Assembly (NCBI GenBank): GCA_903868145.1
Contig: CAIPTY010000077.1
Location: 1-36,088, forward strand
DNA: 36,088 nt
Direction: 5' to 3'
From: an uncultured Desulfuromonadales bacterium
GTDB taxonomy: Bacteria > Desulfobacterota > Desulfuromonadia > Geobacterales > Pseudopelobacteraceae
Shown: positions 5,359 through 9,226 of the stretch, one piece after another
How positions within the stretch are numbered: position 1 is the stretch's first letter
Layout: each line of letters starts with the position of its first letter
The notes under the pieces: generated by a model
What the model saw: the letters and a program-made list of their open reading frames with translations, nothing else
The model's database searches: none
Told to the model about the DNA's origin: nothing
Program-made: the position numbers and the translations under genes

Positions 5359-5409
5359 ATGCCGCACGATTTGATGGGAACTTTTACTGAAATGAATCTG
5401 TCCGATTAG
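5359..5409 (+). CDS. Possible 16-codon leader ORF before the ECF sigma gene
   Basis: ATG at 5359 has a strong ribosome site (GTGAGGAG, about 7 nt upstream) and reads MPHDLMGTFTEMNLSD before TAG at 5407. The stop is 2 nt before the sigma-factor ATG and in another frame, so if translated it could feed ribosomes onto the sigma gene, which has no ribosome site of its own. The competing reading is that this stretch is simply a sigma-factor promoter (5377-5405) and the ORF is fortuitous. Both could be used from different transcripts. Too short to judge by sequence alone. Confidence 0.3.
   Translation: MPHDLMGTFTEMNLSD
5377..5405 (+). promoter_or_regulatory. ECF-type promoter just upstream of the sigma gene (autoregulation)
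   Basis: GGAACTT (5377-5383), 16-nt spacer, GTCCGA (5400-5405). This matches the RpoE-family pattern (GGAACTT ... GTC) and shares TGGGAACTTTT plus TGTC, at identical spacing, with the element at 8263-8291. A start site 6-7 nt past the -10 would fall at or next to the A of the sigma ATG (5412), implying a leaderless mRNA. Confidence 0.7.
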
Positions 5410-5411
5410 TC

Positions 5412-6017
5412 ATGGGTACGGAGAGATTGGATACCCGCGATGACGCGACCCTTGCTGACGCCTGCCGTGCCGGTGATACAGCCGCCTTTGAGTATCTGGT
5501 AAGGCGGCATCAGCGCATGTTGCTTAATGTGGCATTCCGCATGACCGGCGTCTACGAGGATGCCTGCGATGTCGTCCAGGAGGCATTTATTATGGCCTGG
5601 CGCAAGATTGCCGATTTTCGCGGCGAGGCACGCTTCACGACCTGGATGACCGCAATCGTGCTCAATCTGTCCCGAAACCGCCTGAAACAGTTGCACGTTG
5701 CGGAACGCCGCACAGCCTACTCTCTGGATGCACCCATTCCGGGGAGTGCAGGCGAGATGATGCCCGATCCGCCCAGCGATGCGCCATCAGTGCTGCACCA
5801 GATGGAAGAGGCCGAAATCCGGCAGGCCGTGCAGCGCTGCATCGATGCACTCACCATGGAATTCCGGGAAGTGCTGGTGCTGAGAGACATGCAGGGCATG
5901 CCCTACGATCAGGTCGGCGCAGCGCTCAACTTACGGGAAGGCACCGTAAAATCGCGCCTGTTCCGGGCACGTGACGCGGTCAGGGATTGTGTCAGGAAAT
6001 CGGTGGGGACACCATGA
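5412..6017 (+). CDS. ECF-family RNA polymerase sigma factor (RpoE-like)
   Basis: A 201-aa sigma70-family factor with only regions 2 and 4. Region 2 spans about 22-98 (AFEYLVRRHQRMLLNVAFRM, then DVVQEAFIMAWRKI and TTWMTAIVLNLSRNRLK); region 4 spans about 135-192 with the helix-turn-helix MPYDQVGAALNLREGTVKSR. A Pro-rich linker (104-125) separates them. In frame upstream of 5412 there is a stop at 5388 and no other start codon, so the ATG at 5412 is forced; no ribosome site precedes it. It overlaps the next gene, a membrane anti-sigma factor, by ATGA, which strongly suggests a partner-switching pair that responds to an envelope signal. Confidence 0.93.
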   Translation: MGTERLDTRDDATLADACRAGDTAAFEYLVRRHQRMLLNVAFRMTGVYEDACDVVQEAFIMAWRKIADFRGEARFTTWMTAIVLNLSRNRLKQLHVAERRTAYSLDAPIPGSAGEMMPDPPSDAPSVLHQMEEAEIRQAVQRCIDALTMEFREVLVLRDMQGMPYDQVGAALNLREGTVKSRLFRARDAVRDCVRKSVGTP

Positions 6018-7036
6018 ACAGCCACTCTGACATTCGCACACTGTTGTCAGGCTACTGTGGGGATGACCTGCCAGCATCCGAACGCACTGCTGTTGAAGAG
6101 CACCTGAAGCTCTGCCCGGACTGCCGTGCTGAGCTGCTGGAACTCCAGACCACACTGCGGGTGATCCGAACGACTCCCGGAATTGAACCGCCCCCCTGGC
6201 TGACGACACGTATCATGGCCCATGTCAGGGAAGAGCAGGCAGAGAAGCAGGGGTGGCTGAAACGCCTCTTCTTCCCGCTGCGAATCAAGATTCCGCTGGA
6301 ACTTACGGCGCTTCTGGTGGTCTGTCTGTGTGGCTACTACCTGACGCGGACAGTAGAGACCGAACTGAGATCGCCGCAGATGCTTCAGGATGCTCCCGCT
6401 CCCGCATCGGCACCACGAGTCGAACGGAAGCCTGATATGCCCAAGGAAAAACCGATACTTCCTGAACCGTCACGCACAAAGACCGCTCCGATTGCGCCGC
6501 CGGTTCAATCTCCGCCTGCCAGCCGGGAGGAATCCGTTCAACACGCTGCCCCCCAGACCTTTGCACCGGCTCCACCAGCCTTGAAACGGGAGCAGCCTTC
6601 GCCGAGTGGGGGTTCCGACGCCGTCCGATCCGAAAGTATCCCGGCTGACAAAACAAACAACCGCGCCATGGAAGCAGCACCTGTTGCAAAGAAAAAGTCT
6701 GCACGGGGGGAGATGCGTTTTGAGCCCGGAAACGTGAACCCGGGCGCTGCCAGCAAAGCCACAGCAAGGGCTGTGAAGGATAAACTCCCCCAGATGACAC
6801 TCCGCCTGGACGTTTCAGATAAAAGCAGTGCAGCCCGCGCTATCCGCCTGGCCGCCTCGCGGAGTGGCGCCGGGGTGGTAGATGAATTCCGACACTCCTC
6901 CGGTCGATTAACGCTGAAGATCCCCGCCGCGCGTTTTGAAGAATTCTGCGACCGGTTGGCGCTCATAGGACACATCAGCGAACAGCCCGAGCCGCCCCTC
7001 AATGTTCAGATGCTGGAGGTAACCATCCTGTGGTGA
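6014..7036 (+). CDS. Membrane-anchored zinc-finger anti-sigma factor
   Basis: A 340-aa single-pass membrane protein. The cytoplasmic N-terminus carries the ZAS motif H30-x3-C34-x2-C37 (EEHLKLCPDC), with a further Cys15; this domain grips the cognate ECF sigma factor. A transmembrane helix spans about 93-112 (ELTALLVVCLCGYYL). Then comes a long Pro/Ala/Lys-rich linker (about 120-255) and a folded-looking C-terminal domain (about 260-340) ending EPPLNVQMLEVTILW, presumably in the periplasm; it may correspond to a DUF2275- or DUF4349-like domain, but this is uncertain. The start at 6014 is chosen for the 4-base overlap with the sigma stop and a GGTGGGG ribosome site. Release probably follows proteolysis, as for other membrane anti-sigmas (family knowledge). 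Confidence 0.88.
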   Translation: MNSHSDIRTLLSGYCGDDLPASERTAVEEHLKLCPDCRAELLELQTTLRVIRTTPGIEPPPWLTTRIMAHVREEQAEKQGWLKRLFFPLRIKIPLELTALLVVCLCGYYLTRTVETELRSPQMLQDAPAPASAPRVERKPDMPKEKPILPEPSRTKTAPIAPPVQSPPASREESVQHAAPQTFAPAPPALKREQPSPSGGSDAVRSESIPADKTNNRAMEAAPVAKKKSARGEMRFEPGNVNPGAASKATARAVKDKLPQMTLRLDVSDKSSAARAIRLAASRSGAGVVDEFRHSSGRLTLKIPAARFEEFCDRLALIGHISEQPEPPLNVQMLEVTILW

Positions 7037-8253
7037 TCCATCCCCGCAGCTTCCATTATGGCTGGGTCATCGCCGCCATCGGCTTCATGATTATCTTCGC
7101 CTGCATCGGTCTGGCGCGCTATGCCTACACCATGCTGCTTCCCGCCATGCAGTCAGGACTGAGTCTGGCGGATGACCGGATGGGCTTTATCGGCACGGGA
7201 AACTTCTGCGGCTATCTGCTGGCGGTTGTGCTGGCTCCCCGCATGATCCGGCGTTTCCGGCCCCGTGCGGTGATTGCCGGTGGGCTGACACTGATTACAC
7301 TGACCCTGTCCGGCATCGGAGTCAGTCATGGCTTCCTCCTCCCGCTGGCGCTTTATTTTCTAGTCGGGATGGGTACCGGTTTTGCCAACATCCCCACCAT
7401 GGCGTTGATCAGCCAGTGGTTTCGCAGCGACCAGCGCGGCAAGGCTGCCGGGCTCATGATCGGCGGCAACGGAGCCGCTATTGTTCTTGCAGGTATCCTG
7501 GTACCTCTGCTCAACCGGACTTTCGGTGCGGACGGCTGGCGGGCGGGCTGGTTCCTCCTGGGGGGCATTGCCCTTCTGGTAACCCTCCTGTCAACCTGGC
7601 TGGTACGCAACTCCCCGGCGGACATGGGGCTGGAGCCGCTCGGCAGAAAACTGACCCCAACCCCTGATCAACTGCTACCTCAAGAGCAGAGGGGGGACGG
7701 CGCCCTTCTGCTGCGCCTCGGATTGCTCTACCTGGCCTTTGGCGCCACCTTCATGGTCTATGGCACCTTCATCGTCACCACCATGGTGCGCGACTATGGC
7801 TTCAGCGAGGCCCGTGCGGGCATCTACTGGTCGTGGGCAGGCTTCTTCAGCCTCTTCTCCGGCATAGCCTTCGGAACCCTCTCGGATCGAATCGGCCGCA
7901 GACACGGTTTGGCACTGGTATTCATCGTCCAGACCGCTGCCTATCTGTTGGCAGGACTCAAACCCGGCAGCCTTGGGCTGATGGTCTCCATCGCCCTCTA
8001 TGGCTCGGCAGTCTTTGCAATTCCGGCCATCATGGCTGCTGCCGTGGGGGATTACCTGGGGATGTCACGTGCGGCCTCGGCCTTTGCCACCGTCACTATC
8101 TTCTTCGCGGCCGGTCAGACTGTGGGACCGGCCGCCGCCGGCATGATCGCCAGGGGCACCGGGTCCTTCACACACGCCTATATGGCAGCCTCCCTGATTA
8201 CCGCTACGGCAGCACTCTTCGCACTCTTTCTGCCGAAACCGCACCGCATCTGA
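7030..8253 (+). CDS. MFS transporter, 12 transmembrane helices
   Basis: A 407-aa major facilitator with roughly twelve hydrophobic helices. The N-terminus FHYGWVIAAIGF and GLARYAYTMLLPAM, plus the loop MALISQWFRSDQRGKAAGLM after helix 4, recall the YbfB/YjiJ and oxalate/formate-antiporter-like MFS groups. The second half repeats with GTLSDRIGRRHGLALV. The substrate cannot be read from sequence. It starts with GTG at 7030 (GGAGGT at 7015-7020) and overlaps the anti-sigma gene by 7 bases, so it is the third gene of the sigma operon; an export or uptake role in the same stress response is inferred from this coupling only. Confidence 0.88.
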   Translation: MVIHPRSFHYGWVIAAIGFMIIFACIGLARYAYTMLLPAMQSGLSLADDRMGFIGTGNFCGYLLAVVLAPRMIRRFRPRAVIAGGLTLITLTLSGIGVSHGFLLPLALYFLVGMGTGFANIPTMALISQWFRSDQRGKAAGLMIGGNGAAIVLAGILVPLLNRTFGADGWRAGWFLLGGIALLVTLLSTWLVRNSPADMGLEPLGRKLTPTPDQLLPQEQRGDGALLLRLGLLYLAFGATFMVYGTFIVTTMVRDYGFSEARAGIYWSWAGFFSLFSGIAFGTLSDRIGRRHGLALVFIVQTAAYLLAGLKPGSLGLMVSIALYGSAVFAIPAIMAAAVGDYLGMSRAASAFATVTIFFAAGQTVGPAAAGMIARGTGSFTHAYMAASLITATAALFALFLPKPHRI

Positions 8254-8262
8254 TTTTTTTTG

Positions 8263-8291
8263 GGAACTTTTTCAAACATCCTGCTGTCAAA
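8263..8291 (+). promoter_or_regulatory. ECF-type promoter upstream of the secreted-protein gene
   Basis: GGAACTT (8263-8269), 16-nt spacer, GTCAAA (8286-8291): a very close fit to the RpoE consensus. It shares TGGGAACTTTT and TGTC at identical spacing with 5377-5405. The likely start (about 8298) leaves a short leader that contains the GGAGG ribosome site of the gene at 8330. Confidence 0.75.
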
Positions 8292-8329
8292 GAAATCACA
8301 GAGACTTTATTCCCCGGGAGGAACAGATC

Positions 8330-9194: not shown

Positions 9195-9226
9195 AACGCC
9201 CCGATTCCAGAAGGAAAAGGGGCGTT
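9195..9226. terminator. Bidirectional terminator between converging genes
   Basis: Inverted repeat AACGCCCC (9195-9202) / GGGGCGTT (9219-9226), 8-bp stem and 16-nt loop, centred in the 76-bp gap between the secreted-protein gene and pyc, which converge here. T-tracts are short on both sides (ATTTTAT on the minus strand), so efficiency is uncertain. Confidence 0.65.

Follow-up and report, generated by a model that had tools for sequence, protein, structure and literature searches.

The described systems most similar to the one considered here are the sigma-E (RpoE)/RseA pair of E. coli, the AlgU/MucA pair of P. aeruginosa and the SigW/RsiW pair of B. subtilis. As a rule, a sigma factor of the extracytoplasmic function (ECF) type regulates its own expression together with that of its anti-sigma factor (PMC3817407); autoregulated ECF sigma/anti-sigma pairs are, for this reason, a kind already known. 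Here we analyse a 36,088-nucleotide stretch of DNA (the window; contig CAIPTY010000077.1 of assembly GCA_903868145.1) from an uncultured Desulfuromonadales bacterium, in which consecutive genes for an ECF sigma factor, an anti-sigma factor, a major facilitator superfamily (MFS) transporter and a secreted protein are accompanied by two matched promoter-like boxes, P1 before the sigma gene and P2 before the gene of the secreted protein (Table 1). The locus has the features of an ECF sigma/class I anti-sigma module, namely an ECF sigma, an adjoining anti-sigma and a conserved bipartite promoter common to sigma and targets. It very probably constitutes a positive-feedback envelope-signalling module, in which the sigma factor would drive its own operon from P1 and, separately, the secreted protein from P2.

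As in the E. coli and P. aeruginosa systems, the promoters resemble the GGAACTT/GTC-type consensus of sigma-E/AlgU systems, autoregulation is predicted, and the sigma factor is nearest to sigma-E among solved chains (1or7, E-value 1.6e-25; 6in7, E-value 2.1e-25). Both Pfam Sigma70_r2 and Sigma70_r4_2 are above cut-off, regions 2 and 4 being the only ones present, as in the ECF type, and the TIGR02937 sigma70-ECF model scores 97.9 bits (cut-off 42.9). A first, sequence-only reading of this DNA had called the sigma RpoE-type: it is indeed RpoE-like, but falls short of the RpoE equivalog cut-off (TIGR02939, 113 vs 236.15 bits), as it does of those for SigW (106.2 vs 209 and 100.5 vs 243.1 bits). 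Other differences from sigma-E/RseA and AlgU/MucA are the zinc motif and the different C-terminal domain of the anti-sigma, the very small regulon predicted in the window's genome, and the lack of any match to the RseB/MucB family among the four locus genes in Pfam/NCBIfam scans.

The anti-sigma is a membrane protein whose N-terminal domain resembles that of MucA in structure comparison (Z 8.1 over 55 residues, root mean square deviation 2.0; RsiW, Z 7.5). With RsiW it shares the zinc anti-sigma domain (zf-HC2, 36.1 bits vs cut-off 22.2) and sequence similarity (E-value 4e-12), but differs by its long Pro-rich linker, its extra C-terminal domain and the targets of the system. The HX3CX2C motif is found in all 29 anti-sigma loci scored, L052 being left unscored. 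Residues 58-175 reach the gathering cut-off of DUF2275 (PF10039, 46.9 vs 24.6 bits), a domain reported in some ECF36 members (PMC8999054); there it is fused to the sigma factor, while here it lies on a separate anti-sigma. The structure model has a single long helix, a linker that is disordered, and a C-terminal domain predicted well (residues about 258-340), which bears a weak likeness to DUF4349; the protein narrowly misses the DUF4349 (PF14257) cut-off (26.3 vs 27.7 bits). Fold comparisons of this domain gave middling matches only, the best with PilO (Z 6.3), and no kinship was assumed.

P1 and P2 both read TGGGAACTTTT-N13-TGTC over 28 bases, with the same element spacing and spacers unlike each other, and the gene order is the one that the sequence-only reading had reported along with them. 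The genome-wide scan that it had proposed returned, in the whole 3.80-Mb genome (G000, 103 contigs), exactly two matches to GGAACTTTTN{13,16}GTC, both at the locus, before the sigma and the secreted-protein genes; for GGAACTTTT-N13..16-GTC, too, P1 and P2 are the sole matches. Might the two boxes be a chance similarity of two AT-rich stretches? The weaker pattern GGAAC-N18-GTC occurs four times in the window (5377, 8263, 8385 and 27246), where a mean of 1.16 is expected, so that, with about one chance copy per window and two copies beyond P1 and P2, GGAAC/GTC is by itself no evidence. The fuller TGGGAACTTTT-N13-TGTC, in contrast, occurs twice, and never in 300 first-order resamples of the window. 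Together with the conservation and co-occurrence described below, this makes chance similarity extremely improbable and, as far as sequence can tell, already refuted. A promoter profile, built from sequence alone on 36 sites including P1 and P2, recovered only P2 (22.0 bits) and P1 (13.1 bits) from the genome at E-values up to 1; the two scores follow by construction, both being training sites, and the weight lies in the lack of a third site, in a search with 120 out of 1166 candidates scored and with stricter filters, by which weak sites can drop out. The predicted regulon in this genome thus consists of the P1 and P2 sites only.

The secreted family, looked for in 277 genomes of the class, was found in 35, all within the order; the anti-sigma was found in 40 of 141 genomes of the order. 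Both are present in 34 of the 35 secreted-family genomes, the exception being G064, and six genomes have an anti-sigma match without the secreted gene: the family occurs with the sigma module, patchily, across the order. Of the 40 genomes with the anti-sigma, 30 supplied loci for comparison, the 5' end of the sigma gene being included in 29, and in 28 of these GGAAC-N17/18-GTC (26 N18, 2 N17) lies directly 5' of the sigma start. GGAAC-N18-GTC also lies upstream of all 33 secreted genes, out of 36, whose 5' regions were compared, while the reversed pattern occurs in the same loci at 0.0025 per 100 nucleotides (nt). The sequence-only reading had named as its own refutation boxes missing where related genomes retain the operon; by this comparison it is not refuted.

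The exact GGAACTTTT-N13-TGTC occurs at 58 sites in 138 genomes of the order, vs 30 for the reversed control; 48 fall in 30 of the 41 genomes with an anti-sigma or secreted-gene match, and 10 in 10 of the 97 genomes without the module (Fisher 5e-13, uncorrected for relatedness). The promoter profile, at E-values up to 1, matches 37 of 38 module genomes, many below 0.01, vs 9 of 22 module-free ones (best 0.038). One such module-free match, in G028 (contig C18, 103738-103767; L147), has no obvious secreted gene behind it and is likely due to chance. In G064, the genome without an anti-sigma match, the secreted gene is broken (contig C19, about 145572-146130; L023, L025, L026) by a TGA and a missing middle part, while its promoter box remains, as though the gene had decayed once its regulator was gone.

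The sigma gene could be served by a genuine P1 and the secreted gene mainly by read-through from the operon, P2 being weak. Only 7 bases separate the MFS stop codon from P2, and no terminator-like site is listed on the + strand between them. However, secreted genes away from the operon keep their box: in G036 the gene is on contig C13 and the sigma operon on C2, in G055 they are about 17 kb apart, and in G002, where other genes stand between operon and secreted gene, the box stays with the latter. Twelve secreted genes, some of them on contigs too short to give the true distance, have no sigma or anti-sigma match in a flank of up to 1.5 kb. We accordingly regard predominant read-through as very improbable.

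Beyond the order, a profile search of 395 sampled genomes of the phylum found the secreted family in 21, 17 of them outside the order. Among the 16 of these whose loci were compared, GGAAC-N17/18-GTC precedes the secreted gene in 7, a GAAAC variant in one, and CGAAC-N18-GTC in 4 of the 5 of family f51. Sigma matches at E-values up to 1e-30 are present in 15 of the 17 genomes. These loci bear on whether another ECF sigma of the cell serves the boxes, the adjacent one being a mere neighbour. Several ECF sigmas are usual per genome and GGAAC/GTC elements are common to several ECF groups; moreover, two distant genomes, G323 and G464, have boxed targets and no clear sigma orthologue. Against this, GGAAC-N18-GTC precedes the best sigma match in 12 of the 15 distant genomes (it is absent at L207, L213 and L214), and none of the 11 further ECF matches examined, out of 15. 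With the 28 of 29 loci within the order, the sequences argue that the box associates with the orthologous sigma and not with its paralogues. Furthermore, box sites track the presence of the module across genomes, and in f51 the same GAACC variant is found in sigma and target boxes alike. Service by another sigma is thus improbable. In G305 (L162, L204), the sigma match and the secreted gene are divergent.

Control of both boxes by the adjacent sigma, which we favour, has to be set against several observations. The reversed control pattern gives 16 matches in the window's genome vs 2 for the true pattern, so that their number by itself does not exceed chance; the striking point is the location of both matches, next to the sigma gene. 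The promoter profile was trained on these very sites, P1 and P2 included, and the sequences compared are kin, so that counts are not independent. Within the order, L044 lacks a GGAAC before the sigma gene; outside it, no box is found at 4 of the 16 secreted-gene loci (L166, L168, L172, the last from f51, and L176). The sigma match of G357 has no box, and a GAAAC variant precedes the secreted gene, which lies just upstream of it on the same strand (L163/L207, contig C253). G323 has a boxed secreted gene and a best sigma match (1.4e-31) without box, in an assembly 93% complete, and G464 a boxed secreted gene and no sigma match at 1e-30, in an assembly 85% complete.

From the boxes, their conservation, the co-occurrence and the domains observed, we infer a mechanism that extends to transcription, the signal, the mode of release and the function of the output. 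The zinc-binding membrane anti-sigma would hold the ECF sigma inactive until it is freed by an envelope signal, for which the C-terminal domain of the anti-sigma is the probable sensor. The freed sigma would bind GGAACTTTT/GTC promoters: P1 would raise sigma and anti-sigma together, and here also the MFS transporter, giving feedback amplification, while P2 would raise the secreted effector independently of operon read-through. The P1 transcript would start at the sigma AUG, the P2 transcript carrying a normal Shine-Dalgarno (SD) leader. The sequence-only reading had likewise proposed that the sigma drives its operon and the secreted gene; conserved boxes and co-occurrence of the module support it, except that the MFS gene lies outside the conserved module. 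Within the order, the output most often met with the module is the secreted protein, which also occurs beyond the order; some relatives would add a YfbK-type VWA lipoprotein, discussed below.

At two S. meliloti ECF promoters, SMc01149 and SMc04049, RNA starts 9 and 10 nt downstream of the last base of GTC, according to the lower-case letters of Table 1 in PMC6180224, the bold type of which is lost in the text; leaderless transcripts beginning at AUG are known in S. meliloti (PMC3616915). By these distances, RNA from P1 would start at 5411-5412, and the ATG of the sigma gene is at 5412. Across 29 loci, the gap from GTC to the sigma start is 9 nt in 8, 7 nt in 11 (three with a GTG start codon), 4 nt in 7 (L044 included), 4 or 7 nt in 2 with two ATGs, and 15 nt in one; in 28 loci, then, box and start codon are 4-9 nt apart. 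For gaps of 7-9 nt, box position predicts a leaderless sigma mRNA, a point absent from the sequence-only reading; in the 7-nt class this would need an RNA start 8 nt after the C. The 4-nt class (L043, L044, L045, L047, L051, L054 and L056) falls outside this scheme: its start codon lies upstream of the expected RNA start, so that another start codon or a shorter distance would be used. The distance between the sigma box and the start of similarity is larger in the distant genomes of f51 and f32, and the leaderless arrangement is therefore not general. A literature search on Geobacter transcription start sites or leaderless transcripts found nothing on the subject, as judged by title.

Unlike the sigma gene, the secreted gene has an SD leader, in the window and in orthologues; the distance between its box and the start codon is in most cases 37-56 nt, and in L010 it is 121. 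The boxes also differ in sequence: P2-type boxes (33 sites) mostly end in GTC-[T/A]-A-A, and P1-type boxes (25 sites) in GTC-N-N-A-T, T being present in 96%. In most f4 genomes, G140 excepted, P1-type boxes have an A after GGAAC (GGAACAAAT, GGAACATAA and similar) instead of GGAACTTTT. The tuning of the feedback promoter therefore seems to differ from that of the output promoter.

A further, rather doubtful possibility is that the feedback sigma is translated from leaderless mRNA and the targets from strong SD leaders, and that the P2 spacer could pair with the SD on read-through RNA. Translation would then start in a different way in each arm of the circuit and could be tuned separately when ribosomes or SD-dependent initiation shift under stress, and the pairing would let the secreted protein be made solely from its own promoter. 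The pyrimidine fraction of the 13-nt spacer averages 0.83 in secreted-gene promoters (33 sites) vs 0.50 in sigma promoters (25). For 17 secreted genes linked to the operon, predicted SD openness is 0.05 on read-through RNA vs 0.50 on RNA from their own promoter, and vs 0.14 with shuffled spacers (Wilcoxon p 0.007). The 12 unlinked genes are nearly the same (0.09 vs 0.17), 7 YfbK-type genes show a smaller effect (0.21 vs 0.28), and linked genes differ from all others with a p of only 0.04. Cognate spacer/SD pairings exceed swapped ones, an excess confounded by relatedness, and RNAalifold found no consensus helix in either the linked or the unlinked group. On these results, SD sequestration by the spacer is kept as speculation only.

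The short frame overlapping P1 may perhaps, speculatively, couple sigma translation on longer upstream transcripts. Of 28 loci, 27 were scored for upstream open reading frames with the same stop position, L036 being left unscored; 4 of the 27 have one, three of the four from close relatives (the relatives with the same stop are L032, L033 and L037), and such coupling was not retained.

The secreted protein has no Pfam or NCBIfam match; with 28 family members searched against Pfam at E-values up to 1, the best match reached 0.0054, and no solved relative was found by sequence (best E-value 0.96). With its structure model (mean pLDDT 65.9) Foldseek gave no match under an E-value of 0.001. The best structural match was with MSP domains (VIA Z 6.8), in the range of common sandwiches, and no kinship was assumed. 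Since the family is unmatched in these databases and yet co-occurs with the sigma module, both within the order and in further families of the phylum, it should offer a good handle on the envelope stress sensed. What had been an ECF sigma without assigned role and a secreted family without annotation would thereby become a defined regulon open to testing, whose clear promoter can be transferred to reporter constructs, and the predicted leaderless sigma mRNA opens a simple test of feedback wiring at translation. No literature on the present regulon was found, in a search outside which most subscription journals lie, so that absence is unproven.

Genes for YfbK-type VWA lipoproteins (PF12450, PF12034) are present in 8 of 38 module genomes, the window's not among them, and GGAAC-N18-GTC precedes the gene in all 8; no literature linking YfbK to a sigma factor was found, judging by titles or abstract openings. 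In G101 a strong site precedes the gene of a DUF4139 protein; of the 22 DUF4139 loci found in 32 module genomes, however, just 1 has such a site, and membership in the regulon was rejected. In G129, a DUF4139 protein gene lies near the anti-sigma gene (contig C24, 36362-38680), and the one match to the secreted family in this genome is no larger than a fragment. Single promoter-like sites precede a VIT-VWA gene (G135, L136), a serpin gene (G132, L143) and radical SAM genes (G134, L142; G133, L137); having been seen once or twice, these are not claimed as members. The serpin and the inter-alpha-trypsin-type domain hint, without proof, at a protease theme.

Table 1. Features of the locus, in window coordinates.
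Feature	Coordinates	Strand	Remarks
Short open frame, 16 codons	5359..5409	+	GAGGAG SD-like sequence; overlaps P1; stop 2 nt before sigma start codon
P1, predicted ECF promoter of sigma/anti-sigma operon	5375..5402	+	-35 GGAAC 5377-5381 (TTTT 5382-5385); -10 TGTC 5399-5402 (GTC 5400-5402)
ECF sigma factor, 201 aa	5412..6017	+	Pfam Sigma70_r2, Sigma70_r4_2
Anti-sigma factor, 340 aa	6014..7036	+	Zinc anti-sigma domain with HX3CX2C; single membrane helix (predicted); Pro-rich linker; C-terminal domain
MFS transporter (MFS_4/YbfB-like), third operon gene	7030..8253	+	Lineage-specific
P2, predicted ECF promoter of secreted-protein gene	8261..8288	+	-35 GGAAC 8263-8267; -10 TGTC 8285-8288 (GTC 8286-8288)
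Predicted 5' leader of secreted gene	8297..8329	+	SD GGGAGG 8316-8321; RNA start inferred; orthologues with SD leader
Secreted protein, 281 aa	8330..9175	+	Signal peptide judged by eye; beta sandwich predicted for the conserved N-terminal half
GC-rich inverted repeat AACGCCCC...GGGGCGTT, candidate terminator	9195..9226	+	By eye; absent from predicted-terminator list

The frames of sigma and anti-sigma overlap by 4 nt, those of anti-sigma and MFS by 7 nt; the inverted repeat sits between the secreted gene and a converging pyruvate carboxylase gene. A homology search of genome contigs with the sigma gave 6 loci (26-38% identity), from other groups by title, which were not used, and a search of viral contigs found no relative. 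Among the loci examined, the MFS gene is matched outside the window's genome only in L028 (G055) and by a truncated frame in G002; by this distribution it is a lineage-specific passenger. Of the MFS gene, the short G002 frame (L151, 2671-3012) keeps just the beginning and the end; the gene seems to be eroding there, and two other genes lie between this remnant and the secreted gene.

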